Below, piece by piece: positions 12,513-31,303 of a DNA stretch of 52,312 nt (its first letter is position 1; each line of letters opens with the position of its first letter). The position numbers and the translations under genes are program-made. Under the pieces are notes generated by a model, which was given only the letters and a program-made list of their open reading frames with translations, was not told the origin of the DNA and did not search any database. Location: contig JAUYOW010000272.1 of the NCBI GenBank assembly GCA_030697825.1, positions 1 to 52,312 on the forward strand, read 5' to 3'. Origin of the DNA: Gemmatimonadales bacterium. Its GTDB lineage: Bacteria > Gemmatimonadota > Gemmatimonadetes > Gemmatimonadales > JACORV01.

Positions 12513-12569
12513 TGCGGAGATGACGCGCGGAATCGAGACGGAGCAGCACTCTTTCGGGAGACGGCGAAT

Positions 12570-14804: not shown

Positions 14805-14821
14805 GCGTGCAGGGAGGTCCG

Positions 14822-15151
14822 GTGCGTGGATTGACGTTGTGCTCGCTGGTTGCGCTCGCCGCATTGCTCGGAGCGCACCGGGGACAGACGCCCGCCACGG
14901 GGCGGGATGTCTATCGCACACGCTGCGCGATGTGCCACGGCCCGGAGGGCCGCGGCGACGGACCGGCCGGTGCTGCGCTGACCCCTCGAGCGACGAACCT
15001 GACTGTCGGCGCGGACCTGACGGCGGTTTCGGATTCGGTGGTGAGGGCGATCGTCACGAGCGGGCGGCGCGGCATGCCGGCGTTCGGCCGGATGCTGACG
15101 CGCGCACAAACCGATTCCGTCGTGGCGTACTTGCGGACGCTGCGGCACTGA
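14822..15151 (+). CDS. Small monoheme cytochrome c
   Basis: Periplasmic electron carrier of 109 residues: signal peptide RGLTLCSLVALAALLGAHRG, one CxxCH (CAMCH, in CAMCHGPEGRGDGPAG) and a distal Met in GMPAFGRML, a class I cytochrome c layout. The GTG at 14822 is preferred over the upstream in-frame ATG because AGGGAGG stands 5 bp before it and the signal peptide then begins correctly; the longer form would run inside the barrel gene. It is the third gene of the porin-cytochrome operon. It is clearly paralogous to the C-terminal half of the diheme protein at 16611, the equivalent carrier in the second operon. Confidence 0.88.
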   Translation: MRGLTLCSLVALAALLGAHRGQTPATGRDVYRTRCAMCHGPEGRGDGPAGAALTPRATNLTVGADLTAVSDSVVRAIVTSGRRGMPAFGRMLTRAQTDSVVAYLRTLRH

Positions 15152-15167
15152 CCAGGCGGTGGCGGGG

Positions 15168-15305
15168 GTGCCGCGGCGAAGAATCCCCTTCCGGCTCCTT
15201 GTTTGGCTCGCCGCCGGGTGCGCGGCAAGCCTGCTCCCCGGGGGCTGCGGTGCGGACGCGCGACAAGCGGCAACAAGACCCGAGCCGCGCGCCTGCTGCG
15301 GCTGA
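15168..15305 (+). pseudogene. Truncated lipoprotein gene fused to the duplicated regulator tail
   Basis: A GTG with a GGCGGGG upstream starts a 45-codon frame, MPRRRIPFRLLVWLAAGCAA then SLLPGGCGAD. This is a convincing bacterial lipoprotein signal with LPGGC as lipobox. From codon 34 the DNA becomes the duplicated 3' end of the response regulator in another frame and a stop follows quickly. I read it as the surviving 5' end of a lipoprotein gene cut by a deletion or recombination. No function can be assigned; it could also be an accidental frame. Confidence 0.4.
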
Positions 15306-15381
15306 CCCGGGATACCTTGCGCTACCGGCTGGAGAAGTACGGCATCGGATAGCGGCCGGTGGGGCATCTGCCCCGGTCCGC
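15267..15381 (+). repeat. Duplicated 3' end of the sigma54 regulator gene plus operator (pseudogene fragment)
   Basis: Near-identical to 11285-11399. Read in the original frame it encodes GNKTRAARLLRLTRDTLRYR and ends LEKYGIG then a stop, the DNA-recognition part of the Fis-type helix-turn-helix. The two internal coding differences (GAC to GAT, TTA to TTG) are synonymous; the last codon differs (Val to Gly). There is no start codon, receiver or AAA+ part. It looks like the remnant of a second, once complete regulator gene that stood in front of the porin operon. Confidence 0.8.
15361..15374. promoter_or_regulatory. Palindromic operator GGGGCA-TC-TGCCCC upstream of the porin operon
   Basis: Same perfect arms as the site at 11379, immediately after the regulator-tail remnant. 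Its start lies 122 bp upstream of the start of the candidate sigma54 element at 15483, one helical turn more than the 111 bp seen in the first operon. Confidence 0.7.
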
Positions 15382-15482
15382 CAGCGGCATCTCACCCGGC
15401 CCGGCGGTGCGCCGGATGGCACCACGTTCCGCAACTTCATACCCAGTAACGAGTACGAGGCGCAACGCACCCGCGGCCCGTT

Positions 15483-15497
15483 TGGTGCTAGGGAAGC
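15483..15497 (+). promoter_or_regulatory. Candidate sigma54 promoter for the porin/cytochrome operon
   Basis: TGGTGCTAGGGAAGC, followed by A, keeps GG and GC at the required spacing but matches the rest of the consensus less well than the site at 11490. It ends 78 bp before the porin ATG. A second look-alike beginning at 15418 (TGGCACC) has GC one base too far away. Confidence 0.4.
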
Positions 15498-15575
15498 ACT
15501 CGGTGTCACCTGCGGGATCACGCGGATGCACTCGCCACTCCCGCGCCGTTGGGCATACAGCCTTAAGGAGGGGGC

Positions 15576-16598
15576 ATGCGAAAGACGGTCATGTGGACGG
15601 CGATCGCCCTGAGCGGTATCGCCGCGCCGCCGGTGTTGGCGCAGGGACTCATCGTCAGCGGATACGCGACCGAGGAGCTCGAGGTGAATCTCACCAAGCC
15701 GAGAGCGAACACGTTCGACGCCCAGAACTTCAACCTGATCTTCCTGGGGCAGCTTGGCGGCGACGTGTTTGCCGCGGCGGAAGTCGAGTACGAGCACGGG
15801 GGCGAGGAGATCGAGTTCGAGTACGGCTACCTGGCGTTCACCCGGTGGTCGTTCGCGAACATCGTCGCCGGCAAGTTCCTGGTGCCGTTCGGACGCTTCA
15901 ACGCCGACCTGCACCCGGCGTGGATCAGCCGGATCCCGGGTCGGCCGCTGCCGAACGATGCCATCCTTCCGGTGGGCTACAGCGACGTCGGCGTGATGGT
16001 ACGCGGCGCCGCCGCGGCGGGCACCGCCGGGCGCTTCACGTACGACGTGTGGGGCGTGAACGGCCTCGCCGGGGACGCGGGCTCGGGCATCCGCGGCATG
16101 CGCGACAACAACGTGGACGCGGACAACAACATCGCGCTTGGCGCGAGGGCCGGGTTCGTCAGCACCATGGGCTTCGACGTGGGTGCCTCGTTGTACAACG
16201 GCGTGTACTGCGACTCCGCGTGCAGCAGCAGCAGCGGGGACCTCAACCTCCGCATTCTCGGGTTCGACGCCACCTACCGCCGCGGCCTGATGGAGGTTCG
16301 CGGCGAGTGGATGCAGGCCGCGCAGGACACGTCCCTGACGGCCGACGTAACCAAGAGCGGCTTCTACGTGCAGGGGTCGTACCTTTTCGTGCCGACGGTC
16401 GAGGCCGCCTTGCGGTTGTCTCAGGTGGACTTCCCGGATGCTGCCAACGACAAGCGGCGTATCAGCCTGGGCTTCAGCCTGTATCCGTCTGATGCGGCTG
16501 CGGTGCGGATTTTCTACAACATCAACAGGCATTTCGGCAGCGGCGTCACGGACCCCAAGGACGACTCGTTCATCGTGCAGTTCACGGTGGGCTTCTAG
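15576..16598 (+). CDS. Outer-membrane porin, phosphate-selective porin O/P-like
   Basis: Beta-barrel of 340 residues with signal peptide MRKTVMWTAIALSGIAAPPV ending at LAQG, then strands such as YLAFTRWSFANIVAGKFLVP and FGRF. The form 'AGKFLVPFGRFN' is typical of OprO/OprP-type porins. It ends in FIVQFTVGF, a C-terminal Phe that fits BAM recognition. A very strong AAGGAGG ribosome site precedes the ATG. It heads an operon with two diheme cytochromes and stands behind the shared operator. The substrate is unknown. A role in passing anions, metals or a soluble electron donor or acceptor alongside the MtrAB-like conduit is only inferred from regulation. Confidence 0.8.
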   Translation: MRKTVMWTAIALSGIAAPPVLAQGLIVSGYATEELEVNLTKPRANTFDAQNFNLIFLGQLGGDVFAAAEVEYEHGGEEIEFEYGYLAFTRWSFANIVAGKFLVPFGRFNADLHPAWISRIPGRPLPNDAILPVGYSDVGVMVRGAAAAGTAGRFTYDVWGVNGLAGDAGSGIRGMRDNNVDADNNIALGARAGFVSTMGFDVGASLYNGVYCDSACSSSSGDLNLRILGFDATYRRGLMEVRGEWMQAAQDTSLTADVTKSGFYVQGSYLFVPTVEAALRLSQVDFPDAANDKRRISLGFSLYPSDAAAVRIFYNINRHFGSGVTDPKDDSFIVQFTVGF

Positions 16599-16610
16599 GA
16601 GGAGCGCGAC

Positions 16611-17261
16611 ATGAACACAACTTGCAAGCGCACGGCGCCGTTCGTCGCCGTAACGTCCCTCGCGGCGCTTCTGCTCCTGCCTCCGCGGCTCGCAGCCCAG
16701 GCGGCGAGTGGCCCCGAGGTGTGGGCGGCCAACTGCGGGAGCTGCCACCGGCTTCGCTCCCTGGAGACGTACACTGCATCGCAGTGGAACACCATTGCCA
16801 CCCACATGGGATTGGTGGCACGCCTCACGGGGGCCGAAACGCGCGCGGTGCGCGAGTTTCTGGTGAATTCGGCGCGGGCCCGGGCGGCGGCCGAGACGGC
16901 ACGCCTGCTGGCCCCGGACCTCGCGGGTGTCCCGGCCACCGGAACATCGGGCGGCGCCCAAGGCGCCGCGGTGATGACCCGCGAGAGTGGAAATATCGAT
17001 CCGGTGGCGGGGCGGGACATCTACCGTGCCAGCTGTGCGGCGTGCCACGGCCCGGAGGGGCGCGGAAACGGGCCGGCTGCGGTGGCGTTGAACCCCCGGC
17101 CGACAGACTTCACCAACGCGGCACAGCGCCAGACGACGACGGACTCCGCGATCGGCGATGTGATCGAGCATGGTCGTCGCACTATGCCGGCGTTCGGGCG
17201 GACGCTGACGAGCACGCAGATCGACTCCCTGGTAGCGCACCTGAAGACGTTCCGGCGCTAG
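16611..17261 (+). CDS. Diheme cytochrome c
   Basis: Periplasmic electron carrier of 216 residues with a signal peptide (hydrophobic about 10-24, then RLAAQAASG) and two domains. The first has CGSCH with a downstream W-NTIATHM segment. The second has CAACHGPEGRGNGPAA and distal Met in TMPAFGRTL. The second domain is closely similar to the monoheme protein at 14822, showing duplication between the two operons. An AGGAGG ribosome site stands 6 bp before the ATG, 12 bp after the porin stop. The first domain resembles the W-V-M type domains of the lipoprotein at 19522. Confidence 0.87.
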   Translation: MNTTCKRTAPFVAVTSLAALLLLPPRLAAQAASGPEVWAANCGSCHRLRSLETYTASQWNTIATHMGLVARLTGAETRAVREFLVNSARARAAAETARLLAPDLAGVPATGTSGGAQGAAVMTRESGNIDPVAGRDIYRASCAACHGPEGRGNGPAAVALNPRPTDFTNAAQRQTTTDSAIGDVIEHGRRTMPAFGRTLTSTQIDSLVAHLKTFRR

Positions 17262-17286
17262 CCAGCCGGGGGAGGAGGGATGCAGC

Positions 17287-18024
17287 GTGTCGCGCCGGCT
17301 CGGAGTGGGAGCCGCGCTCCTCGTCTGCGTCGTCGCGTGCCGCGAGAATCCGCCGCCCCGGCCCGCAGCCGAGGTGGCGGTGTCCGCGCGTCCCGGCGCA
17401 GCAGCCGCGTTCGGGACGGCCCTCGACTCCGTCCCCTCGGTGGCGCAGCGGCCCCTGACCCCGCTGCAACTGGAGGGGCAGCAGGCCTATAACACGTTGT
17501 GCTGGACCTGCCACGGGCTCTACGGGCACGGTGACGGTCCCGCGGCCCGGGGATTCGCGGACCCCTTGCCGGATCTGGCGAGGGTCGCCCGACTCCGGTC
17601 GGACGCCGAGATCATGGAACGGATGTCCAGGCCGCGTGCCCCGGGAGCGGGAGGCCAGGCGGAGCCCCTCTGGCACGCGCTCGAGCCCGAGGCAAAGCGC
17701 GCCGCCGTGGCGTATCTGCGGAGCTTCGCCCCGACCGGATCCCAGGGAAACCCTGCCGCCGGCCGCCTCGTTTACGCCACCTACTGCGTACACTGCCACG
17801 GCGTACGTGGCGCGGGGGACGGCAGGCTGGCACCCGCGCTGGGGAGCCGCCGCGCCAGTCTTCTCCATCTCACGCTCCACGGACATGAAGCACAGGTGCT
17901 TGCGACCATCCGGCGCGGTTCTATCCGGCACGACGCATTCATGCCTGAGTGGGGGCGCGCCTTCACCGATCCGCAGTTATGGGACGTCGTTGCCTACCTT
18001 CAGGTGCTTCAAGCCACCCACTGA
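17287..18024 (+). CDS. Diheme cytochrome c lipoprotein
   Basis: Membrane-tethered cytochrome of 245 residues. It begins at a GTG (SRRLGVGAALLVCVVACREN), where VVAC followed by RE is a good lipobox, placing the mature Cys at residue 18. Two CxxCH sites (CWTCHGLYGHGDGPA and CVHCHGVRGAGDG) define two class I domains, the second with Met in FMPEWGRAF as likely ligand. A GGGGGAGG-type ribosome site precedes it, 25 bp after the previous cytochrome gene. It is the last gene of the porin operon and converges on glpK 5 bp away. Partner proteins are inferred to be the other periplasmic carriers of this locus. Confidence 0.86.
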   Translation: MSRRLGVGAALLVCVVACRENPPPRPAAEVAVSARPGAAAAFGTALDSVPSVAQRPLTPLQLEGQQAYNTLCWTCHGLYGHGDGPAARGFADPLPDLARVARLRSDAEIMERMSRPRAPGAGGQAEPLWHALEPEAKRAAVAYLRSFAPTGSQGNPAAGRLVYATYCVHCHGVRGAGDGRLAPALGSRRASLLHLTLHGHEAQVLATIRRGSIRHDAFMPEWGRAFTDPQLWDVVAYLQVLQATH

Positions 18025-19521: not shown

Positions 19522-20142
19522 CTACCGCCGCGAAGCGCTGCCGAGGTAGAGGACGATCTGTTGCGTCTGCTCGGGGGTCACGCCGCTCACCCGCATGCGC
19601 TCCATGTTGCGCTCCATACGCATGACCACAGCCGGCCAGTCGGCAGAGGAGTGGGATCGTGGGTCGGGGAGCGTGTGGCAGCGACTGCAGCGCTCCTCGA
19701 ACACCTCGCGTCCCGCTCCCGGCGGCAGGTTCTGGGCCACCTTGAGCGCGTTGGCGAGCACGTAGTTCAGGAGCTGCATGCGGTCGGCCGAGGTCGGGGT
19801 GACTACGCCGAGCTCTCCGTGCATCATGTCGATGCGGACCCACATCCGCCGCGCGACGGACGGCCAGTCCTGCGGCGCGTGCATCGCCGGCGACGGCAGC
19901 GCGTGACACTGGGTACAGTACGCCACGAGCAGCTGCGCTCCGCGGGAGGCCGGCTGCGGCAGGCTCTCGGCCACTAGTCCCTCCGGCGGCAGCGCGATCG
20001 TCGTCGCCGTGAGCAGCCGTCGCTCCTGCAGGTTCAGCGCGGGGTTGGCGACCGCCTGGGAAGCCACGTCCTGTGACGCCGACTCCGGTTTGCTGCAAGC
20101 GGCCAGCACGAGACCCAGGGCCAGGAACCGGAAACGGGGCAT
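19522..20142 (-). CDS. Diheme cytochrome c lipoprotein
   Basis: Probable outer- or inner-membrane-anchored electron carrier, 206 residues. The ATG at 20142 is chosen because GGAGG lies 7 bp upstream and the resulting N-terminus, MPRFRFLALGLVLAACSKPE, is a clean lipoprotein signal (LAAC). The longer frame adds 16 residues without a signal. Two CxxCH sites (CTQCHALPSP and CSRCHTLPDP) are each followed by W-P-x-V and R-M segments, a paired repeat similar to the first domain of the protein at 16611. It is 37 bp upstream of glpK on the same strand. Specific redox partner unknown. Confidence 0.83.
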   Translation of the reverse strand: MPRFRFLALGLVLAACSKPESASQDVASQAVANPALNLQERRLLTATTIALPPEGLVAESLPQPASRGAQLLVAYCTQCHALPSPAMHAPQDWPSVARRMWVRIDMMHGELGVVTPTSADRMQLLNYVLANALKVAQNLPPGAGREVFEERCSRCHTLPDPRSHSSADWPAVVMRMERNMERMRVSGVTPEQTQQIVLYLGSASRR

Positions 20143-20259
20143 GGCGATCCTCCATGACGGTGGCAAGCGGGCGCGCAACGCGCTCATCAACTATGATTGA
20201 CCGGCAGCAAGACCTCAAGACCTCGATGTCATTCGCGAGCCTCTAAAGATCACGGCGGC

Positions 20260-20393: not shown

Positions 20394-20399
20394 ACACAG

Positions 20400-20473
20400 T
20401 CGGGACGGCGGGATTTGAACCCGCGACCCCCTGAACCCCATTCAGGTGCGCTACCGGACTGCGCTACGTCCCG
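20400..20473 (-). tRNA. tRNA-Pro (anticodon GGG)
   Basis: The minus strand folds as a cloverleaf. The acceptor is CGGGACG/CGTCCCG with A as discriminator base. The anticodon stem is CCTGA/TCAGG around loop ATGGGGT (anticodon GGG, reading CCC/CCU), and the T-arm contains GGTTCAAATCC. CCA is not encoded. Truncated copies of its 5' half follow at 20616-20881. Confidence 0.93.
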
Positions 20474-20835
20474 TCGATCCTGCAACCAGACCGGTACTTC
20501 GTGGGGTCGCGGGTTCCCGCGATCCCCCTGATTCGATGCCCCGAGCAACGCGAGGGGCGAGAACGGCTGCGGTCGCCGAGTGAGCGACCCGTCGCGAACC
20601 CGGCGACTGCGGCACACCCCATTCAGGTGCGCTACCGGACTGCGCTACGTCTCGTCGATCCTGCAACCAGACCGGTACTTCGTGGGGTCGCGGGTTCCCG
20701 CGATCCCCCTGATTCGATGCCCCGAGCAACGCGAGGGGCGAGAACGGCTGCGGTCGCCGGGTGAGCGACCCGTCGCGAACCCGGCGACTGCGGCACACCC
20801 CATTCAGGTGCGCTACCGGACTGCGCTACGTCCCG
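20474..20835. repeat. Two tandem 181-bp repeats, each carrying a 5' half of tRNA-Pro
   Basis: Units 20474-20654 and 20655-20835 are almost identical. Each ends (plus-strand order) with a 39-bp copy of the tRNA-Pro 5' half, from the acceptor strand through the anticodon (20616-20654 and 20797-20835). The first copy has one mismatch in the acceptor (CTCG for CCCG). The remaining 142 bp contain strong inverted repeats such as GGGGTCGCGGG against CCCGCGATCCCC, like a REP element. Open frames in this stretch are artefacts. Confidence 0.85.
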
Positions 20836-20855
20836 TAAACCGTCTTGAAGCCGCA

Positions 20856-20881
20856 GCGCTACCGGACTGCGCTACGTCCCG
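20856..20881 (-). repeat. Third tRNA-Pro fragment (acceptor strand and D-arm only)
   Basis: A 26-bp exact match to the first 26 bases of the tRNA-Pro gene, without anticodon arm. The following 160 bp to the VapB gene hold nothing else that I recognise. Confidence 0.7.
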
Positions 20882-21013
20882 CGTAAGGCGCCGTCAATGT
20901 AGCACCTTCGCGCTCGTCTCGGCACCCGTCAGCCATGGGCCACGTCCGGGCCTTCATCCCCGGCGCCGGCCCCGGCTTCGCTGGTGACGGCCCGGTGAGG
21001 CCCCGTTGACAGC

Positions 21014-21043
21014 TGCATATATAATGTGCATATCTATGCATAT
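21014..21043. promoter_or_regulatory. TGCATAT repeat operator and promoter of the first VapBC pair
   Basis: TGCATAT occurs at 21014, 21027 and 21037, the last overlapping the antitoxin start, in an AT-rich island within GC-rich DNA. TTGACA (21006-21011) is just upstream. The TATAAT at 21020 is only 8 bp away, so if TTGACA is the -35 box the -10 must be near 21029. Autorepression by the antitoxin is expected for the family. Confidence 0.5.
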
Positions 21044-21260
21044 GCGAACGACACTCATCCTGGATGACGCGCTGGTCGAGCGAGCCCGCCGGCTCACCGG
21101 CCTCACCGAGAAAACCGCGCTGGTCCACGCCGGCCTCAGGGCGCTGATCGAGCGCGAGGCCGCGCGGCGCCTGGCCGCCCTCGGCGGCACGATGCCCGAC
21201 CTCGAGGCACCGCCGCGCCGCCGCTTCCCGCCCGCTCAGAAGCGCCGCCGGCGCCCGTGA
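21042..21260 (+). CDS. vapB: VapB-family antitoxin
   Basis: Antitoxin of a type II pair, 72 residues. RTTLILDDALVERARRLTGL is the ribbon-helix-helix DNA-binding and dimerisation part of the VapB type found with PIN toxins; the Arg/Pro-rich C-terminus (PPRRRFPPAQKRRRRP) would bind the toxin. The ATG at 21042 is preferred; another at 21036 would add two residues. The stop overlaps the toxin's GTG by 4 bp. Confidence 0.82.
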   Translation: MRTTLILDDALVERARRLTGLTEKTALVHAGLRALIEREAARRLAALGGTMPDLEAPPRRRFPPAQKRRRRP

Positions 21261-21622
21261 TCGTCCTGGCCGACACGTCGGTCTGGGTGGACCACTGGCG
21301 ACGCGGCAACCCGGCCTTCGCGGAACGGCTGGCGGGCAACCACATCGCCGTCCACCCCTTCGTCCTCGGGGAGCTGGCGCTGGGCGCGATCAGCCCGCGG
21401 GCCGCGGTGCTCGCCGGCCTGAGGTCGCTCCCGGCCGCGCGCGTTGCCGACGACGACGAGGTGCTCGGGCTGATCGAGCGCCGGCGTCTCGCCGGCCGCG
21501 GCATCGGCTGGGTGGACTGCCATCTCCTCGCCTCCGCCCTGCTCGACCAGGTTCGCCTCTGGACGCTCGACCGGCGGCTCGCGCGTATCGCGACGGAGGC
21601 CGGCGCCGCCTGGACCGGATGA
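21257..21622 (+). CDS. vapC: VapC-family PIN-domain toxin ribonuclease
   Basis: Mg-dependent endoribonuclease toxin of 121 residues. Acidic PIN residues are visible: D6 in LADTSVWVDHW, E in VLGELALG, and Asp in the VDCHLLASALL and LWTLDRRLARIA segments. It starts at a GTG overlapping the antitoxin stop, which couples translation. The likely targets are tRNA or rRNA, as for the family; none can be read from sequence. The location beside a rearranged tRNA locus suits a mobile module. Confidence 0.88.
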   Translation: MIVLADTSVWVDHWRRGNPAFAERLAGNHIAVHPFVLGELALGAISPRAAVLAGLRSLPAARVADDDEVLGLIERRRLAGRGIGWVDCHLLASALLDQVRLWTLDRRLARIATEAGAAWTG

Positions 21623-21662: not shown

Positions 21663-23582
21663 CTAGCGCACGATCACCCGCTGCGTCCGCGTCTGCCCCG
21701 GCTCGTCGTATCCCACGGTGAGCCGGTATTCCCCCCGCGCCGGCGGCGTCCACCAGAAGTCGTACGTCTCCCCGATCTGCACCCGCGCCTCGGCGCGCCG
21801 CTCGACCGACTGCGCCGCCGGAAGGTCCGCTCCGTCCTTCGCCACCCAACGCCACGTCACCGGTCGGCCGCGCTGCTCGATCGCGAACCGGAGCTTCAGC
21901 GCCGCGCCGATGTTCACCAGCCGGAACCGGTGCGCCACGCCGAAGGAAAGCTCCAGCAGCTTGGGCAGCGAGTCGCCGTTCATCAGGATGTGCGGCGGGT
22001 CCTCTTCGCCATCCCACCCGGCCACCACGACGTGGTCGGTCGCGGGATCGAACCCCTGGCCGGGCTCGAGCACCACGATCGCGCCGTAGAGCCCGGCGCC
22101 CAGCTGGATGACATCGTTGAGGTGGGTGTGATAGATGAACGTCCCGGACCTCGGCACGGTGAGGTGCGCCGTGAAGGAGTCCCCCGGCGCGATCGAGGAC
22201 GCGACGCTCGCGCCCATCCCGCTCCATCCCGGAACGCCGTCGGAGCGACTCTCCAGCTCGATGCCGTGCCAGTGCACCCCGGTGGCTTCCACGAGATGGT
22301 TGACGACGGTGATGTCGGTGGGCTCGCCCCGCGCCAGCACCAGGAGCGGGCCCGGAATCTCGATCGAGTCGCGCGCCGGCTCGCGCCCGTCCCGCTCGAG
22401 GACGTAGCCGAGCGCCCGCGGCGAGCGACCTCGCCGCCGCCCCTCCTGCACCAGGAGCCGGAGCGCTCGCGGATGCACGCGGTCGGGCGCGCGCCACCCG
22501 CGCGGCGCGTTAACCGTGATGCCGAGGACCAGCCCCGCCATGTGCCGGCCGACGTCGGGCGAGAGGTTCTCGTGGACGCGCTCGTCGTCACCGGAATCGG
22601 GGGGCGCGAGCCGCGCTCCGCCGGGCACGACGTGGAACGCGATGTGACAGTGGAACAGCCAGTTGCCGTCGCGGTCCGGCACCCAGCTCACCGCCATCGT
22701 CTGACGCTCCCGCATGTCCTCGGTGACGACGAGCCGCCGGCGCTCCGGGGCGTAGAGGGTGTCGGCGTAGGCGTCCCCGCGCGCGTTCACCGAGTAGTAG
22801 AAGCCGTGGAGGTGCATGGGATGCGGCCGCAGGCTCGCGTTGACCCAGCGCCAGCGCACCGTGTCGCCGATGGTGGCTTGGATGTGCTCCGTGTACGGGA
22901 AGGCGCGGCCGTTGATGGCGAGCGCGTTCCGGTAATTCACCGAGTCCACCGGCTGGCCCCAGATGTTGATCACGAAGACGCGGTCGTCGGTGCGCCCCGT
23001 CGCCGAGTCCACGACGAACGCGCCCGCGAGCTGCTCGCGCTCGACGCTGTCCGACTGCGCGCCCACTCGCGCCCGGTAGAAGTAGGTGCCCGGCGCGCCG
23101 GCGGCGAACCGCACCAGGACGCTGTCGCCGGGCCGGATCACGAGGCTGTCGCGCGCCGCGCTGCCCCAGCCGGTGGCGCCGGGGGCTCGGCGCGTCGTGA
23201 GCCCGAACACCGTGACGGTCGAATCGGGAAGGGTGTTCCGCACCGTGGCCGCGATCGTCGTGCCGGTGCGCACGCGGAGAAGCGGGCCAGGGATCCGCGG
23301 CGCCTTCCCCGTCTCCGCGAAGCCTTCCACCATCAGGCTGGGGCCGCGGTCGCTCTCGGGGCGCCACTCGGCGCGAACGACATCGAGCTGGATCGTAAGC
23401 ACCCCGGTGTTCAAGCGGCCCGCCGGCTCACGATTGTCGTTGGCGCGGACCACGTGCGGGTCTTCGGCGCGGCCGCCGCACCCGGCTGCCAGAGCGGACA
23501 GCGCGAACGCGAGCGCGACGCGCGCCACGGCTCGGCGTCGCCGGGCGCCATCGAACGGCGCGCGTTGTCGGGGGGAGATCAC
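21663..23582 (-). CDS. Multicopper oxidase with permuted copper-motif order (lipoprotein)
   Basis: Copper-dependent oxidase, 639 residues, exported as a lipoprotein (ALAAGC, Cys35). Four copper motifs are present but in reversed order: HPMHLHG at 254-260 and HCHIAFH at 311-317 precede HWHG at 437-440 and HTH at 485-487. In ordinary laccases and CueO-type enzymes HWHG and HxH lie in the first cupredoxin domain and the other two in the last. Residues 60-190 look like another cupredoxin domain with no copper ligands (FGLTT and FYRARVG at the expected places), and 510-639 like a copper-free linker domain. All ten copper-ligand histidines and the Cys appear present, so activity is plausible. Substrate unknown; metal or phenol oxidation are family options. 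Confidence 0.85.
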   Translation of the reverse strand: MISPRQRAPFDGARRRRAVARVALAFALSALAAGCGGRAEDPHVVRANDNREPAGRLNTGVLTIQLDVVRAEWRPESDRGPSLMVEGFAETGKAPRIPGPLLRVRTGTTIAATVRNTLPDSTVTVFGLTTRRAPGATGWGSAARDSLVIRPGDSVLVRFAAGAPGTYFYRARVGAQSDSVEREQLAGAFVVDSATGRTDDRVFVINIWGQPVDSVNYRNALAINGRAFPYTEHIQATIGDTVRWRWVNASLRPHPMHLHGFYYSVNARGDAYADTLYAPERRRLVVTEDMRERQTMAVSWVPDRDGNWLFHCHIAFHVVPGGARLAPPDSGDDERVHENLSPDVGRHMAGLVLGITVNAPRGWRAPDRVHPRALRLLVQEGRRRGRSPRALGYVLERDGREPARDSIEIPGPLLVLARGEPTDITVVNHLVEATGVHWHGIELESRSDGVPGWSGMGASVASSIAPGDSFTAHLTVPRSGTFIYHTHLNDVIQLGAGLYGAIVVLEPGQGFDPATDHVVVAGWDGEEDPPHILMNGDSLPKLLELSFGVAHRFRLVNIGAALKLRFAIEQRGRPVTWRWVAKDGADLPAAQSVERRAEARVQIGETYDFWWTPPARGEYRLTVGYDEPGQTRTQRVIVR

Positions 23583-23653: not shown

Positions 23654-24838
23654 GTGACCATCCACGACCCGTACAACGCGTTCATCACCCGTACGCCCCG
23701 GGACGGCGCGGGGATCCGCCTGGCGGTGAAGGACCTGATCGCCACGGGCGGGGTGCGGACCACGGCGGGCTCGAGGATCCTCGCCGACTGGATCCCGCGG
23801 CGCGACGCGCCCATCGTGCGCGCGCTCAAACAGGCCGGCTACGTAGTGATCGGGAAGACGAACACCCACGAGTTCGCCTTCGGCACGACGAACGACAATC
23901 CCCACTACGGCGCCACGAAGAACCCCTGGAACCCGTCGCTCACGACCGGCGGATCCAGCGGCGGCTCCGCGGCGGCGGTGGCCGCCGGGCTGGTGCCGGT
24001 GGCGCTCGGGACCGACACCGCGGGCTCGATCCGCATTCCGGCCGCGCTGTGCGGGTGCGTGGGGTTGAAGCCGTCATACGGACTGCTGTCGACCCGCGGA
24101 ATTGTGCCGCTCGCGCCCACGCTGGACACGGCGGGCCCGCTCGCTCGAACCGTGGATGAGGCCAGGCGCGCACTCGAGGCGATGACGGGCGAACGATACG
24201 CCGAAGAGCTGCCGCGCAAGCCGAGGATCGGAGTGCCGGCACACTACGTCTACGATCGGGTGGATGCGGAGGTCGAGTCGTGCGTGCGCGACGCGATCGC
24301 TTCGATCGGCGCGGAGGTGCGCGAGATCCGGATCCCGGAGCTGGAAGCGTGCGGGCAGGCGGGGATCAGCATCGTGCGGCCGGAGGCGCTCGCGTTCCAC
24401 CGGCGCTGGTTCCCGGAGCGCGCGGCCGAGTATGGGGCGGACGTCGCGAAGTCGCTGCAACTGGCGAGCGAGATCTCCGCCGCGGAGTACCTGGCGGCGA
24501 GGGCGCAGCGCCGCGCGATCAGCCGGGCGATGCGGCGGGCGCTGCGCGAGGTCGATGTCCTCGCCGGACCGACGGTACCGATCCTGGCGTTCGAGAACCG
24601 GGTGGCGTACGAGCCGGTCCTGCCGGGCGGAGAGCTGCCGCGCCACGCGTTGACGAGGCTCACCTATCCGTTCAGCCTGAGCCGGCTTCCCGCGATCAGC
24701 ATCCCGTGCGGGCTCTCCCGCACGGGACTGCCGATCGGACTTCAGTTAGGCGCTGGCCCACGGCGCGAGGGGTTGCTGCTCGCGGTGGCCCGCATGTTCG
24801 AAGCGAGCGTCAGCTTCCGGCCCTGGACGGCATCATGA
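23654..24838 (+). CDS. Amidase, amidase-signature family
   Basis: Serine hydrolase of amide bonds, 394 residues, cytoplasmic. The Ser-cisSer-Lys triad is visible: Lys in LAVKDLIATGG, the Gly/Ser signature TTGGSSGGSAAAVAAG, and the nucleophile Ser in GTDTAGSIRIPAALCG. It is shorter than GatA (about 480) and lacks GatB/GatC neighbours, so a stand-alone amidase is more likely than the tRNA amidotransferase subunit. The GTG start is 71 bp from the divergent oxidase gene. Its 3' end overlaps the convergent lipoprotein gene by 29 bp. Substrate not predictable. Confidence 0.9.
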   Translation: MTIHDPYNAFITRTPRDGAGIRLAVKDLIATGGVRTTAGSRILADWIPRRDAPIVRALKQAGYVVIGKTNTHEFAFGTTNDNPHYGATKNPWNPSLTTGGSSGGSAAAVAAGLVPVALGTDTAGSIRIPAALCGCVGLKPSYGLLSTRGIVPLAPTLDTAGPLARTVDEARRALEAMTGERYAEELPRKPRIGVPAHYVYDRVDAEVESCVRDAIASIGAEVREIRIPELEACGQAGISIVRPEALAFHRRWFPERAAEYGADVAKSLQLASEISAAEYLAARAQRRAISRAMRRALREVDVLAGPTVPILAFENRVAYEPVLPGGELPRHALTRLTYPFSLSRLPAISIPCGLSRTGLPIGLQLGAGPRREGLLLAVARMFEASVSFRPWTAS

Positions 24839-25589: not shown

Positions 25590-25772
25590 GCACCGGCTTT
25601 CTCGTTATCTATCCCATCTACGACGGAGCAGCTTCGCGCGACCGGCCGCGATTCAGAGCGGCGGCCCGGTCTCAGCCGCGACCGGGTTCCGGCTCGGCCG
25701 CGCCGGCGTTCCTGGAACAAGGCTGACTTGCAGGGTCGGTTCCAGGAGTCACCGAGGTACAGGCCGACCTCG

Positions 25773-26390
25773 GTGAGAGCACACGATCTGAGACCACAGG
25801 ATCACTGTACCGACCGGCTACTGGCCGCGGGGCGCGAGTTGTTCGCGCGTAACGGCTACGATGGCACCTCGGTCCGCGCCATTACGTCGAAGTCGAAGGC
25901 CAACCTCGGCGCCATCACCTATCACTTCGGCTCCAAGCACGTCCTCTACTACGCGGTCCTCTCGCTGCTCATGAAACCGCTCGGCAAACGGGTCAGCTTC
26001 TCCCTGTTGAGCGAGCGGCCGCCCCTCGACAAGGTCGAATCGGTGGTGCGCGTGTTCTTCGACCACATCCGTGCCAACCAGGACATGCCCGCCATCATGA
26101 TTCGTGAGATAGCGAGCGGACGGCCTGTCCCGCGACTCGTCTCCGAGACGATGGGCCAGGTCCTTCAGCAGCTGTCCGCGGTTATCGCCGAGGGGCAGGC
26201 AGACGGCACCATTCGCTCCGGCGACCCGTTGCTGCTGGCGCTCAGCTGCGTCGCTCAGCCCATCTACCTCAACCTCGCGCGCCGCGCGATCGCCGCGGCG
26301 GCGGGCCTCGACCAGGACGACGCCGCCGTATTCCACCGGGTGGTGGAGCACGCGGTCGAAACCGTGCGCGCCTCCCTCAGGGCCTCATGA
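25773..26390 (+). CDS. TetR-family regulator (CecR/YbiH-like)
   Basis: Transcriptional repressor of 205 residues. The N-terminal helix-turn-helix is typical of TetR proteins: LLAAGRELFARNGYDGTSVR then ANLGAITYHFGSKHVLYYAVL. The C-terminal part carries the CecR-like segment IMIREIASGRPVPRLV. A GTG at 25773 is taken as start because the TTG 45 bp upstream adds residues outside the domain. It is the first gene of an export operon and overlaps the TolC-type gene by 4 bp; its own promoter carries two palindromes. E. coli cecR precedes ybhGFSR in the same way. Confidence 0.88.
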   Translation: MRAHDLRPQDHCTDRLLAAGRELFARNGYDGTSVRAITSKSKANLGAITYHFGSKHVLYYAVLSLLMKPLGKRVSFSLLSERPPLDKVESVVRVFFDHIRANQDMPAIMIREIASGRPVPRLVSETMGQVLQQLSAVIAEGQADGTIRSGDPLLLALSCVAQPIYLNLARRAIAAAAGLDQDDAAVFHRVVEHAVETVRASLRAS

Positions 26391-27697
26391 TCGGACTACT
26401 CCTTGCCATGGCGATCCAGGACCCGGGCCGCCTGACGCTCGCGCAGACCGTGCAGCGCGCCCTCGCGCAGTACCCGACGGTCGCGGCCGCGCGCGCCGTC
26501 CGCGACCGCGCCGCCGCCGACCTCGGCGAGGCCACGGCCGGCCGCCGGCCGCGCCTCTCCTTGGACGCCTCGCTCACCCGGTTCCAGGAGCCGATGGTGG
26601 TTTTCCCGCTCCACGGCTTCGATCCGGCCAACCCGCCACTCTTCGATCGCACGCTGATCCAGTCGGGCGTGACGCTGAACTGGACCCTCTTCGACTTCGG
26701 CAACCGCGCCTCGCGCGTCCGCGCCGCCCGCGCCCTGGGCGGCGCCGCCGACGCGGCCCTCGGCGCCGCCCTGAGTCAGCTGGTAGCGCGCGCGTCGAAC
26801 GCGTACCTGCGAGTGCTCACCGCGCGTGGCGTGCTCGCGGCGCAGGACCAGCGGCTCGCCGCCCTCACCGCGGAATCGGAGCGCGCGCGGCGCCTCCTCG
26901 CTGAAGGCAAAGCCGCCCGCGTCGAGATCCTCCGGGTGGCCGCCGAGCTGGCCCGCTCCCGCGCCGACCGCATCGCCACCGAGGCGCAGCTCGAGGTGGC
27001 CGAGCACGACCTCGCCCAGCTCGCGCAACTGCGCTACGACCAGGTGCACGCCGACTCGCTCGCCCCGCTCGCGCTCTCCGACACGACCCCCGCGCCCGAC
27101 CGCGCCGCGATCGTGGCCCGTGCCCGTGACAGCAGCCCGGAGCTCCTCGAGGTGCGCCGCCGCTCCGAGGCGGCGCAGGCGGGGCTCGTCGCGGCCCGCG
27201 CCACGCGCTTCCCGGAGCTTCGTCTCAGCAGCGGCTACTTCGACCGCGGCCGCGGCTCCGGCGACTTCAAAGCCGAGTGGCAGGCCGGCGTGGGCCTCTC
27301 CTACGCGCTCTACACCGGCGGCAGCCGGTCCAGCCAGATCAGCCGCGCCGACGCCGACCGGCGTGGGGCCGGCGAGCAGCTCCGGCTCGCCGAGCTCAAC
27401 GTCGAACAGGGCGTGGACCGCGCCCTCGCGGCGGTGCGCGAGGCCCACGCGCGGGTGGCCGCGCTCCAGAGCGCGGTGGAGCAGTCGGAAGAAGTGGCCC
27501 GCATCGAGCGGCTCTCTCTCGAAGTGGGCTCCGGCACGCAGACCGACTATCTCGACGCCGAGGCGAACCTCCTGCGCGCCCGCGCCAGCCTGATCGAGGT
27601 GCGGAACGCGGAGATCTCCGCGCGCATCGAGCTGGCCCGGATCGCGGGCGAGCTGTCCCCCGACTGGATCACGACCAAGGTGACACATGGACCGTAG
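26387..27697 (+). CDS. TolC-type outer-membrane efflux channel
   Basis: Outer-membrane exit duct for the ABC exporter encoded downstream. The 436-residue protein has a short N-terminal export signal, then the two-fold repeat of long helices and strands characteristic of TolC (for example TLAQTVQRALAQYPTVAAAR and, in the second half, SLIEVRNAEISARIELARIAG). Heptad-rich, Ala/Arg/Glu-rich stretches make the coiled-coil barrel. ATGA overlap with tetR; 11-bp overlap with the adaptor gene. E. coli ybhGFSR has no linked TolC gene, so its inclusion here makes a complete tripartite pump operon. Confidence 0.9.
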   Translation: MIGLLLAMAIQDPGRLTLAQTVQRALAQYPTVAAARAVRDRAAADLGEATAGRRPRLSLDASLTRFQEPMVVFPLHGFDPANPPLFDRTLIQSGVTLNWTLFDFGNRASRVRAARALGGAADAALGAALSQLVARASNAYLRVLTARGVLAAQDQRLAALTAESERARRLLAEGKAARVEILRVAAELARSRADRIATEAQLEVAEHDLAQLAQLRYDQVHADSLAPLALSDTTPAPDRAAIVARARDSSPELLEVRRRSEAAQAGLVAARATRFPELRLSSGYFDRGRGSGDFKAEWQAGVGLSYALYTGGSRSSQISRADADRRGAGEQLRLAELNVEQGVDRALAAVREAHARVAALQSAVEQSEEVARIERLSLEVGSGTQTDYLDAEANLLRARASLIEVRNAEISARIELARIAGELSPDWITTKVTHGP

Positions 27698-28697
27698 GCG
27701 CATCCTCATCCCGTTGGCCGCCATTGCGGCCATCGCCATCGCCCTGAAGCTCACCGTCTTCAGGAGTGACGGCGCCGACGGCGGGCTCGAAGCTTCGGGC
27801 ACGGTAGAGGCCACGGAGGCCGAGCTGGGCTTCCAGGTCCCGGGCCGCATCGAGGCGATCCTGGTGCGTGAGGGCGATCGGGTCACCGCGGGCCAGGAAC
27901 TGGCCCGACTCGACCGCGCGGAGCTGGACGCGCGGAAGCAGCAGGTACAGGCGCAGCTCGCCGCGGCTCGGGCGCTCCTCTCCGAGATGGAGTCGGGGGC
28001 GCGGAGCGAAGAGGTCGCGCAGGCGCGCGAGGCGCTGCGCGCCGCGAACGAGCGATACGCCGACGCGCGGCGCGACCTGGACCGCACCCAGCGTCTGGTG
28101 GAAGGCGGCGCACTCTCCCAGGAGAGGCTGGACCGCGCCCGCCTCCAGCTCGAGCTGCTCCAGAGCCAGCGCGACCAGGCCCAGCAGCAGGTCCAGCTGG
28201 TCGAAACGGGCCCGCGCCGCGAGCGCATCGAAGGACAACGCGCCTCGGTGGCGCAGGCTGAAGCAGCGGTCCGCCAGATTGACGCGTCGCTCGCCAACGC
28301 GGTGATCCGCGCGCCGTTCGCCGGAGTCGTCACCGTGAAGGACCGCGAGCTCGGCGAGACGGTCGGCGCGGGCGCGCCCGTCCTCACCATCATGAACCTC
28401 GACGACCGATGGGTCCGGATCTACATCCGCGAAGACCGCATCGGCGCGGTTCGCATCGGCGAGGACGCGACCATCACCGCCGACACCTATCCGGGCCGGA
28501 CGTACCGCGGCCAAGTGGCGTTCATCGCCAGCCAGGCCGAGTTCACGCCGCGCAACGTGCAGACCGCCGAAGAGCGAGTGAAGCTGGTGTACGCGGTGAA
28601 GGTGCGCGTGACCCAGGATTCGACCTACGACCTTAAGCCGGGGATCCCGGCAGACGTCAGGCTCAGCGGGAGCCGGGAGCCGGGAGCCGTTCCTTGA
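27687..28697 (+). CDS. HlyD/YbhG-type membrane fusion protein
   Basis: Periplasmic adaptor between the ABC permeases and TolC, 336 residues. It has one N-terminal membrane anchor (ILIPLAAIAAIAIALKLTVF), a biotinyl-lipoyl half motif (GTVEATEAELGFQVPGRIEA), a long alpha-helical hairpin from about 75 to 190, the second half motif NAVIRAPFAGVVTVKDRELG and a beta-barrel domain (VRIYIREDRIGAVRIG). The C-terminus is encoded by three copies of a 7-bp repeat (28667-28687). Overlaps both neighbours. Confidence 0.92.
   Translation: MDRRRILIPLAAIAAIAIALKLTVFRSDGADGGLEASGTVEATEAELGFQVPGRIEAILVREGDRVTAGQELARLDRAELDARKQQVQAQLAAARALLSEMESGARSEEVAQAREALRAANERYADARRDLDRTQRLVEGGALSQERLDRARLQLELLQSQRDQAQQQVQLVETGPRRERIEGQRASVAQAEAAVRQIDASLANAVIRAPFAGVVTVKDRELGETVGAGAPVLTIMNLDDRWVRIYIREDRIGAVRIGEDATITADTYPGRTYRGQVAFIASQAEFTPRNVQTAEERVKLVYAVKVRVTQDSTYDLKPGIPADVRLSGSREPGAVP
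28667..28687. repeat. Three 7-bp tandem repeats inside the adaptor gene's 3' end
   Basis: CGGGAGC three times in a row, encoding SREPGA-type residues at the extreme C-terminus of the HlyD protein. Confidence 0.6.
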
Positions 28698-30133
28698 GTG
28701 CCGCCGTTCAGCTTCGCGGCCTAACGAGGACATTCGGGGAACTGACAGCCGTGGACGGGCTCACGTTCGACGTGCAGCCCGGAATGCTGTTCGGCCTGGT
28801 CGGTCCCGACGGCGCGGGGAAAACGACGACGCTCAGGATGCTGGCGGGAGTGCTCCGCCCCACGTCGGGCGACGCGCTGGTAGGCGGCGTCAGCGTCGCG
28901 ACGGATCCCGAGGGCGTGAAGCACCGGATCGCCTACATGAGCCAGCGCTTCGGCCTCTACACCGATCTCACCGTCCGCGAGAACATCGACTTCTACGCCG
29001 ACCTCTACCAGGTGCCCAAGGCCGAGCGCCCCGCCCGCCTGGAGCGGCTCTACCGCTTCTCGAACCTCGGCACCTTCGAGGACCGGCTCGCTGGGAAGCT
29101 CTCGGGCGGGATGAAGCAGAAGCTCTCGCTCTGCTGCGCGCTCATCCACCACCCGGAGATCCTGCTCCTCGACGAGCCGACCTTCGGCGTGGACCCGATC
29201 AGCCGCCGCGAGCTGTGGCAGATCATCCGCGACAACGTCGCGGAAGGGATGACGGTGCTCATCACGACCTCCGCGCCGGAGGAAGCCGAGCGTTGCGACG
29301 ACGTCGCACTGCTTTCGGAAGGGCGGCTCGTCCCCGGCAAGCGCGTAACGAATCCCCCGCCGCTCGAGCACCCGGACAGCCACGTCGGCGCCGAGCCGGC
29401 GGTGAGCGTGCGCGACCTCACCCGCACCTTCGGCGACTTCACCGCGGTCAGCCACATCTCGTTCGAGGTGCCCCGGGGCGAGATCTTCGGCTTCCTAGGC
29501 CCCAACGGCGCCGGGAAGACGACCACGATCAAGATGCTCGCGGGCCTCCTGTCGCCTACCGGCGGCACGGGCGTCGTAGCCGGGCACGACGTCCGAACCG
29601 ACAGCGAGTGGATCAAGCAACGCATCGGCTACATGTCGCAGCTCTTCTCGCTCTACAACGACCTGACGGTGGAGGAGAACATCGCCTTCTTCGCGGGGCT
29701 CTACGAGGTGACGGGCGAGCGGCTCGACGCGCGCCGAGACTGGGTGCTGGCCATGTCGGGACTCGCCGACCAGCGGCACCGGATGACGGCCGAGTTGCCG
29801 CTCGGCTTCAAGCAGCGCCTCGCGTTGGGCTGCGCGATGCTGCACCAGCCGCCCATCCTGTTCCTCGACGAACCGACGTCCGGCGTGGATCCGGCGGCGC
29901 GGCGCAGCTTCTGGGAACTCATCTACCGGCTCGCCGACGGCGGGACGACCGTCTTCGTCAGCACCCACTATATGGAGGAGGCGGAGTACTGCCACCGCGT
30001 GGCGCTGATGAACCGGGGCAAGGTGATCGCGCTCGACACGCCGGGCGCGCTGAAGGCGGAGCTGGGCGTGCCGACGCTCGAGGACGTGTTCGTCACGATG
30101 GTCGAACGCAGCGGCGGGCAGGTGATCGGATGA
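28694..30133 (+). CDS. Fused dual ATP-binding protein of ABC exporter (YbhF-like)
   Basis: Energising subunit with two nucleotide-binding domains in one 479-residue chain, starting at a TTG that overlaps the adaptor stop. The first domain has Walker A GPDGAGKTT (37-45), signature LSGGMKQKL and Walker B LLLDEPTFGVDP. The second has GPNGAGKTTT, a changed signature (LPLGFKQRL in place of LSGGQ) and LFLDEPTSGVDP. A canonical signature in one half and a degenerate one in the other suggests unequal ATP sites, as I would expect for YbhF/RbbA-type fused ATPases. Partner permeases follow directly. Confidence 0.92.
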   Translation: MSAAVQLRGLTRTFGELTAVDGLTFDVQPGMLFGLVGPDGAGKTTTLRMLAGVLRPTSGDALVGGVSVATDPEGVKHRIAYMSQRFGLYTDLTVRENIDFYADLYQVPKAERPARLERLYRFSNLGTFEDRLAGKLSGGMKQKLSLCCALIHHPEILLLDEPTFGVDPISRRELWQIIRDNVAEGMTVLITTSAPEEAERCDDVALLSEGRLVPGKRVTNPPPLEHPDSHVGAEPAVSVRDLTRTFGDFTAVSHISFEVPRGEIFGFLGPNGAGKTTTIKMLAGLLSPTGGTGVVAGHDVRTDSEWIKQRIGYMSQLFSLYNDLTVEENIAFFAGLYEVTGERLDARRDWVLAMSGLADQRHRMTAELPLGFKQRLALGCAMLHQPPILFLDEPTSGVDPAARRSFWELIYRLADGGTTVFVSTHYMEEAEYCHRVALMNRGKVIALDTPGALKAELGVPTLEDVFVTMVERSGGQVIG

Positions 30134-30141
30134 TGGCCGGC

Positions 30142-30183
30142 GGCCAACGCCCAACGGCTACCGGCTAACGGCTAACGGCCGCC
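30142..30183. repeat. Six degenerate 7-bp tandem repeats abutting the permease start
   Basis: GGCCAAC, GCCCAAC, GGCTACC, GGCTAAC, GGCTAAC, GGCCGCC run up to 1 bp before the ATG at 30185 and fill the only real gap in this operon. The region lacks a purine-rich ribosome site for the permease. Confidence 0.6.
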
Positions 30184-30184
30184 C

Positions 30185-31303
30185 ATGATACGCCTCGGAC
30201 GCCTGCTCGCCGTCTCCCGCAAGGAGGTCATCCAGCTGCGCCGCGACCCGCGCAGCCTCGGCATGGCGTTCGTGGTGCCGGCGCTGCTGACGCTGCTGTT
30301 CGGCTACGTCATCACCTTCGATGTGCGCGACATCAGGTTGGGCGTCCTGGATCACGACGGCACGCAACCGAGCCGCGACCTGGTGCAATCGTTCGCGTCG
30401 TCGGGGTATTTCCGCGTCCACCGTCACCTCGAGCGCGACGCCGAAGTCGGGCCGCTGCTCGAGAGAGGGGACGTGCGGCTGGTGATGGTGATCCCGCCCG
30501 GGTTCTCCCGGGACCTCGCTTCGGGCCGGCCGGCGCCGGTGCAGGCGCTGGTGGACGGCGGGGACGCGAACACCGCATCCATCGCGATGAACTACGCCCG
30601 CGGCATCGTGACCGCGTACTCGGCGCGCGCGGTGCTCCGCGGCAGGCCCCTGGTCCCGCCGGTGTCCATCGAGGCGCGCGTCTGGTACAACGAGGAATTG
30701 AAGAGCAGCAACATGGTGGTGCCCGGCCTCGTCGCGGTCATCATGATGATCATCGCCGCGATGCTCACCGCGCTCACCGTGGCGCGCGAGTGGGAGCGCG
30801 GCACCATGGAGCAGCTCGCCGCCACGCCCGTGCACCGGGTCGAGGTCATCTTCGGGAAGCTCCTGCCCTACCTCGCCATCGGCCTGATAGACGTCGCGGT
30901 CGCCGTAACCATGGCGGTCACCATCTTCGGCGTGCCATTCCGGGGGAACCCGCTCTTCCTGCTCGCGATGTCGTTCCTCTTCCTGCTCGGCTCGTTAGGC
31001 CTCGGGATATTCATCAGCGCCGCCATCAAGTCGCAGCTCCTCGCCACGCAGATCGCGATGCTCGCGACCTACATGCCCTCGCTGTTGCTCTCGGGGTTGA
31101 TCTTCGACATCGGCGGGTTCCCGCCGGCGCTGAAGGTCGTTTCCGCGCTGGTGCCTGCCCGCTACTTCGTCACCGTGTTGCGCGGCGTCTTCCTGAAGGG
31201 CGTCGGGCCGGACGTGCTCTGGGAGCAAGGGCTCGGCATGATCGTCTTCGCGGTGGTCGGACTCACTCTCGCCGTGCGCGCGTTCCGCAAGGAGATCGGG
31301 TGA
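30185..31303 (+). CDS. ABC-2 type permease (YbhS-like)
   Basis: Inner-membrane transport subunit of 372 residues. It has an N-terminal cytoplasmic amphipathic start (RLLAVSRKEVIQLRRDPRSL), a first membrane helix, a large periplasmic domain of about 140 residues (LGVLDHDGTQPSRDLVQSF) and then five more helices, with the ABC-2 segment REWERGTMEQLAATPVHRVE. This layout is that of YbhS/YbhR and YhiH-type exporters. It works with the fused ATPase and the second permease; drugs, cations or lipids are substrates for relatives, not determinable here. Confidence 0.9.
   Translation: MIRLGRLLAVSRKEVIQLRRDPRSLGMAFVVPALLTLLFGYVITFDVRDIRLGVLDHDGTQPSRDLVQSFASSGYFRVHRHLERDAEVGPLLERGDVRLVMVIPPGFSRDLASGRPAPVQALVDGGDANTASIAMNYARGIVTAYSARAVLRGRPLVPPVSIEARVWYNEELKSSNMVVPGLVAVIMMIIAAMLTALTVAREWERGTMEQLAATPVHRVEVIFGKLLPYLAIGLIDVAVAVTMAVTIFGVPFRGNPLFLLAMSFLFLLGSLGLGIFISAAIKSQLLATQIAMLATYMPSLLLSGLIFDIGGFPPALKVVSALVPARYFVTVLRGVFLKGVGPDVLWEQGLGMIVFAVVGLTLAVRAFRKEIG

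Follow-up and report, generated by a model that had tools for sequence, protein, structure and literature searches.

Introduction

In multicopper oxidases (MCOs), electrons pass from a type-1 (T1) copper over a His-Cys-His bridge to a trinuclear centre where O2 is reduced, a mechanism established across the superfamily. The number of domains per protein is given as two, three or six in the accessible text of PMC13151041 (2026) and PMC7036934. According to the same part of PMC13151041, the type-B two-domain MCOs are homotrimers of identical units. For the six-domain proteins, the available sections of PMC3600357 place the trinuclear ligands of algal Fox ferroxidases and of all bacterial oxidases analysed there in domains 2 and 3; in the bacterial proteins, T1 is confined to domain 2. 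Prokaryotic members span 1217-2681 aa. In ceruloplasmin, hephaestin and factors V and VIII, these sections locate the trinuclear centre, where present, between domains 1 and 6, and their scheme of MCO evolution leads from two to six domains by triplication. Gemmatimonadales had the most laccase-like genes in one soil, all classed as two- or three-domain in the portion of PMC12045287 at hand.

Here we describe an MCO gene from a Gemmatimonadales bacterium, located in a stretch of 52,312 nucleotides (contig JAUYOW010000272.1) that was analysed as a whole and is called the window below. We consider it quite likely that the gene encodes a secreted, O2-reducing oxidase of four cupredoxin domains, with T1 in domain 2 and a trinuclear centre between domains 2 and 3 (D2/D3), derived from the fusion of two two-domain units.

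Results

The copper motifs lie in the two middle domains of a four-domain protein

The gene and its protein are laid out as follows.

21663..23582, minus strand: four-domain MCO gene, GTG start, 639 aa
23478..23582, minus strand: signal peptide with lipobox LAAGC ending at Cys35, read from the sequence; few relatives show a lipobox
22992..23453, minus strand: domain 1, residues 44-197, D1-type cupredoxin by profiles, ligand-free, with a likely vestigial His126 in 41/97 relatives
22497..22991, minus strand: domain 2, residues 198-362, T1 copper site and half of the trinuclear centre
22803..22823, minus strand: HPMHLHG 254-260, T1 His254 and trinuclear His257 and His259 (sequence and family alignment)
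22632..22652, minus strand: HCHIAFH 311-317, trinuclear His311 and His313, T1 Cys312 and His317 (sequence and family alignment)
22542..22631, minus strand: T1 loop 318-347 between His317 and Met348, enriched in His, Asp and Met across the family, low model confidence
22539..22541, minus strand: Met348, putative axial T1 ligand, M in 97/97
22050..22487, minus strand: domain 3, residues 366-511, D1-type cupredoxin, other half of the trinuclear centre
22263..22274, minus strand: HWHG 437-440, trinuclear His437 and His439 (sequence and family alignment)
22122..22130, minus strand: HTH 485-487, trinuclear His485 and His487 (sequence and family alignment)
21666..22049, minus strand: domain 4, residues 512-639, D2-type cupredoxin, ligand-free (Pfam, model and profiles)

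A sequence-only reading of the window had reported four copper motifs with all trinuclear ligands apparently present, in reverse order compared with laccase, and the translated reading frame bears this out: HPMHLHG, HCHIAFH, HWHG and HTH follow one another and supply 11 of the 11 expected ligands. Pfam likewise finds Cu-oxidase_2, the C-terminal laccase domain, at 216-321 and then Cu-oxidase_3, the N-terminal laccase domain, at 408-507, the reverse of laccase. All the ligand motifs of the superfamily (HxH, HxH, HxxHxH and HCHxxxH) are present in cupredoxin domains, and the protein scores far below the cut-off of every NCBIfam laccase, CueO, ascorbase and CopA model. None of 20,000 shuffles of the protein contained HxxHxH, HCHxxxH and HxHG at once, a control for composition only; with the retention of the ligands in 95/97 relatives, this shows that the motif set is not due to chance.

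The same reading had placed a ligand-free cupredoxin-like domain in front. In the genome search, this domain indeed scores 34.5 bits with PF07732 (Cu-oxidase_3), whose cut-off is 21 (G000:C272:23004-23297), which makes domain 1 a D1-type cupredoxin stripped of its ligands. A fourth domain (512-639), which had gone unmentioned, follows domain 3; it is also ligand-free, matches PF00394 weakly (26.4 bits against 21) and forms beta strands in the model. The signal peptide points to an extracytoplasmic enzyme. Its description as a lipoprotein holds for the window protein, with its lipobox and Cys35; the scarcity of visible lipoboxes among relatives means that membrane tethering is not a trait of the family.

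We compared each domain with profiles of known types. Domain 1 matched the D1 type (E 4e-19) and domain 2 the two-domain D2 (7e-27). Domain 3 matched the D1 type at 1e-29 to 7e-32, slightly better with three-domain D1 (7e-32) than at 1e-29, and domain 4 matched D2 of the two-domain oxidases (2dMCO) at 1.5e-14 and three-domain D2 at 1.2e-12; domains 3 and 4 fit three-domain references about as well as two-domain ones. Each half of the protein covers both domains of the type-B 2dMCO profile (4e-32 over 255 columns and 3.6e-32 over 197), and a comparison of one half with the other gives 5e-16 over 229. Each of these E-values stems from a single pair compared, with reference profiles that are shallow (8 similar sequences, Neff 1.6, for 2dMCO), and is to be taken as a rank. 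From these comparisons, the D1-D2-D1-D2 layout is most likely explained by the fusion of two two-domain oxidases. The ligand losses are complementary, and a single complete site remains, at the D2/D3 junction. Because this sole complete site sits between the middle domains, the motifs seem back to front relative to laccases. The label "circularly permuted" given to them earlier is not supported as it stands by this pattern, which is not plainly that of a re-cut three-domain enzyme, although the second half may have had a three-domain source.

The ligands are conserved across a widespread family

The family is secreted and widespread. A scan of genome contigs returned 21 related loci, 20 of which match most of the query; these 20 are assigned to Gemmatimonadetes or its orders and families, to Candidatus Eremiobacterota/Eremiobacteria and, in one case, to Bacteroidetes. 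At E 1e-30, a profile search that scored three candidates per genome, and whose copy numbers are thus lower bounds, matched 120 of 395 sampled Gemmatimonadota genomes. Among those of good quality, 93/286 matched; counted by genus, matches occurred in 51 of 138. The two further genomes of the window's genus both stayed unmatched at this threshold. At 1e-60, matches were found in 13/148 genomes of the group centred on the Eremiobacterota locus L015 and in 3/296 of that centred on the Bacteroidetes locus L014, both phyla being inferred; in the group around Halobellus, 27/196 genomes matched at 1e-10, all partially. The family has one member in a named species, a homologue on a plasmid of Gemmatirosa kalamazoonensis KBS708 (43.7% identity, 92% of the query). 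A whole-protein search of the window's own genome gave one other match (C99), with the motifs in ordinary order (L002/L058), and a further PF07732 match lies at C113.

Conservation was assessed in 97 unique members, obtained from 179 hits of which 119 passed a score and length filter; they comprise the loci of all searches and 60 regions picked non-randomly from the top and bottom of the Gemmatimonadota match list. The 11 ligands are intact in 95/97, the exceptions being L126, with Arg at 257, and one L085 copy, with Gln at 259. Met348 is kept in all 97. In a smaller alignment (A1, 24 sequences), the 11 ligands and Met348 are all invariant, the invariance of 311-313 being partly built in because A1 was collected by peptide patterns, one of which contained HCH. 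The outer domains look different: no member carries the HxH pair in domain 1 (0/97), and a single His at position 126, the expected place of HxHG, is found in 41/97 and is likely a vestige of the lost half-site. In domain 4 no ligand motif is conserved: any HxH occurs in 8/97 and any Cys in 3/97.

One Gemmatimonadaceae contig carries the four-domain MCO in four tandem copies (L020:3-7842, plus strand). At L085:3561-6479 (minus strand), the oxidase is fused to a C-terminal PD40 beta-propeller, and in the oxidase copy next to it one trinuclear His is gone (HLH to HLQ).

Structure models are consistent with a copper centre closed within one chain

The whole chain was modelled from a 24-row alignment (pLDDT 86.5, pTM 0.87); the ten-residue blocks that hold the ligands have mean pLDDT of 83-93, and that of Met348 has 77. 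Among the first 22 Foldseek matches, the best full-length ones were factor V/VIII, ceruloplasmin and MnxG (TMq 0.52-0.63), with MnxG 9bxa at rank 17 and 10.0 Å. Laccases reached a TMq of about 0.33 at about 16 Å; Foldseek preserves chain order.

We further modelled domains 2 and 3 separately, with moderate confidence (pLDDT 81.8, pTM 0.80). This model aligned with residues 191-551 of ceruloplasmin (Z 17.6, 3.7 Å, 263 residues aligned) and with three-domain laccases and CueO (Z 15.1-16.9, 3.4-4.2 Å, 222-234 aligned). As domain 2 has about 165 residues and domain 3 about 146, alignments of 222-263 residues must span both. These predictions support a packing of domains 2 and 3 like that of ceruloplasmin D2/D3 and laccase D1/D3. 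The laccase D1/D3 pair is roughly two-fold symmetric and the chain order in the alignments is unstated, so the match bears on the packing and not on the place of each residue. Structure prediction had been proposed as a check on whether the centre can close, and the models join both ligand-bearing domains within one chain. The halves of the protein also find separate counterparts: the N half aligns with 3gdc_B, a 285-residue oxidase chain (Z 24.6, 2.7 Å), and the C half with residues 1-263 of 6vow (Z 24.1, 2.6 Å).

The gene stands apart from the neighbouring cytochromes

The surroundings of the gene show no evident operon around it.

11565-18021, plus strand: multihaem cytochrome (doubled CXXCH), MtrB/PioB outer-membrane porin and two cytochrome-c proteins in a row
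19525-20190, minus strand: lipoprotein with two CXXCH (YCTQCH, RCSRCH), an apparent dihaem cytochrome c
20399-20882: tRNA-Pro with a repeated end, on the same side of the MCO gene as VapBC
21006-21619, plus strand: VapB antitoxin and PIN-domain (VapC-like) pair, adjoining the repeated tRNA tails
23654-24838: divergent amidase, on the other side of the MCO gene
25728-31303, plus strand: TetR regulator, outer-membrane efflux protein, HlyD-type adaptor and ABC transporter genes in a row, forming a tripartite efflux operon

The oxidase had been described as lying near so many cytochromes that it could act on quinols or metals. The MtrB/PioB-cytochrome cluster is more than 3.6 kb away, with VapBC and the tRNA in between, a distance that leaves co-function unsupported; gene linkage that would speak for a quinol or cytochrome role is absent. 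The cluster itself, with genes for a histidine kinase and a sigma-54 regulator before it (7937-11370), is likely an extracellular electron-transfer conduit in a Gemmatimonadota genome. A longer shadow ORF in another frame overlaps the dihaem lipoprotein. In the tRNA-Pro region, a 181-bp unit is present twice and a 40-nt tRNA stretch recurs at 20435, 20616 and 20797, with a partial copy at 20843; these repeated tails are possibly the trace of an integration.

We also looked for a conserved partner as a clue to the substrate. An all-against-all ORF comparison around the related loci yielded nothing but Ser/Thr kinases and PP2C phosphatases, present around the loci of some close relatives, and kinase and phosphatase genes of this kind are not found beside the window gene, so this clue was set aside.

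Discussion

With residue roles assigned by motif from the MCO mechanism, an extracytoplasmic substrate would give electrons to the T1 copper in domain 2, bound by His254, Cys312, His317 and probably Met348. Electrons would then cross the Cys312/His311-His313 bridge to a trinuclear centre bound by four residues of domain 2 (His257, His259, His311, His313) and four of domain 3 (His437, His439, His485, His487), where O2 would be reduced to water. Sequence and models together suggest that the four-domain protein, presumably loaded with copper at these sites, is probably active as an oxidase. The axial T1 ligand usually stands ten residues after the Cys; residue 322 is not conserved, and Met348 is preferred for its invariance and its position at the strand after the T1 loop, adjoining the GMFGM motif of type-B 2dMCO, from which it aligns one column off. 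The loop between His317 and Met348 has 17-49 residues across the family (median 26) and is rich in His (9.9% against 3.8% overall), with Met and Asp also raised. It is a guess that this loop, over an open T1 site, could guide metal ions.

How such a protein arose can be read in several ways. In the origin we favour, two two-domain units would have fused, and the first D1 and the last D2 would then have shed their ligands. The motif order might instead come from a circular permutant of a three-domain oxidase (D3-D1-D2) behind a duplicated D1-like domain, with a three-domain gene duplicated and then partly deleted, an origin that we find unlikely. The slightly closer match of domain 3 to three-domain D1, the score of domain 4 with three-domain D2 and the alignment of the C half with 6vow would suit it; yet a permutant would show its parent's domain set re-cut, and here there is an extra D1-type domain in front, contiguous with a two-domain-like D2, while domain 4 is marginally nearer to 2dMCO D2 and the N half aligns with 2dMCO and 3gdc_B. 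Domains 3 and 4, which fit two- and three-domain profiles similarly, speak for neither. It is also rather improbable that the protein is a six-domain MnxG/Fox1-like oxidase truncated by the loss of domains 5 and 6. Its T1 and trinuclear sites are placed as in the bacterial six-domain proteins covered by the available sections of PMC3600357, and Foldseek does find MnxG, though at 10.0 Å. Six regions were however inspected for six-domain relatives, and none was found: of their six reading frames longer than 970 aa, five owe their length to read-through upstream of the family domain, and the sixth is the four-domain MCO that ends in the PD40 propeller, not in cupredoxins.

The remaining alternatives concern the centre itself. 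That it forms between chains of an oligomer is very unlikely in our view: the type-B oxidases build theirs between subunits, as the accessible text of PMC13151041 has it, and our models are monomers, but the monomer model would already pack domains 2 and 3 in the manner of ceruloplasmin and laccase, and the faces left over, on domains 1 and 4, are without ligands across the family. We give hardly any weight to the idea that the protein is degenerate and non-enzymatic, as coagulation factor V became. Ligands are gone from two of the four domains and 2/97 members lack one trinuclear His, but the 11 ligands stand intact in 95/97, at loci from three phyla.

The fusion of two two-domain units remains the favoured origin, and the four-domain MCO possibly marks a 2+2 step on the way from two- to six-domain oxidases. 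It is conceivable, and only just short of probable, that it represents a previously unrecognised class, a surviving 2+2 stage between the trimeric two-domain and the covalent six-domain enzymes. If so, a third of the ring would be missing and the T1 copper would lie open beneath the His/Met/Asp-rich loop, an arrangement that would suit metal ions or partner proteins. Some lineages would also have expanded the enzyme, for example to the four copies that stand in tandem in one genome. The existence of a conserved form with four domains and complementary loss of ligands makes a step between the known forms testable, and many soil Gemmatimonadota proteins with laccase-like domains may have an unassigned architecture. 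A database search for the permuted order had been suggested with the sequence-only reading. Among the open-licence papers of PubMed Central that were searched, no description of a four-domain or naturally permuted MCO was found, while ligands in domains 2 and 3 are already published for six-domain oxidases of the Fox1/MnxG type (available sections of PMC3600357), so that the reversed order has a precedent.

Comparison with known multicopper oxidases

Three-domain laccases, CueO and ascorbate oxidase share the four ligand motifs with the window protein, and its domains 2 and 3 superpose, in the models, on two laccase/CueO domains. Their trinuclear ligands lie in the first and then the last domain; the window protein has four domains, the opposite motif order and an extra ligand-free domain at its N terminus. 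Ceruloplasmin, hephaestin and factors V and VIII are among its best full-length structural matches, and its middle domains are predicted to pack like ceruloplasmin D2-D3, whereas the centre that those proteins, where they have one, form between domains 1 and 6 would here lie between domains 2 and 3. The six-domain MnxG/Fox1 type agrees with it in motif order, in having T1 in domain 2 and in spreading the trinuclear ligands over domains 2 and 3, but has six cupredoxin domains, against four in 639 aa here.

The type-B two-domain MCOs (SLAC/CjMCO kind) share the succession of a D1 type and a D2 type, the T1 site in D2 and a trinuclear centre shared by domain 2 of one unit and domain 1 of another. 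Unlike these enzymes, with two domains per chain and T1 in the C-terminal one, the window MCO has four domains, two 2dMCO-like units in one chain, each minus half of its ligands. The site that survives at the internal junction would thus be the counterpart of the inter-subunit site of the type-B oxidases.
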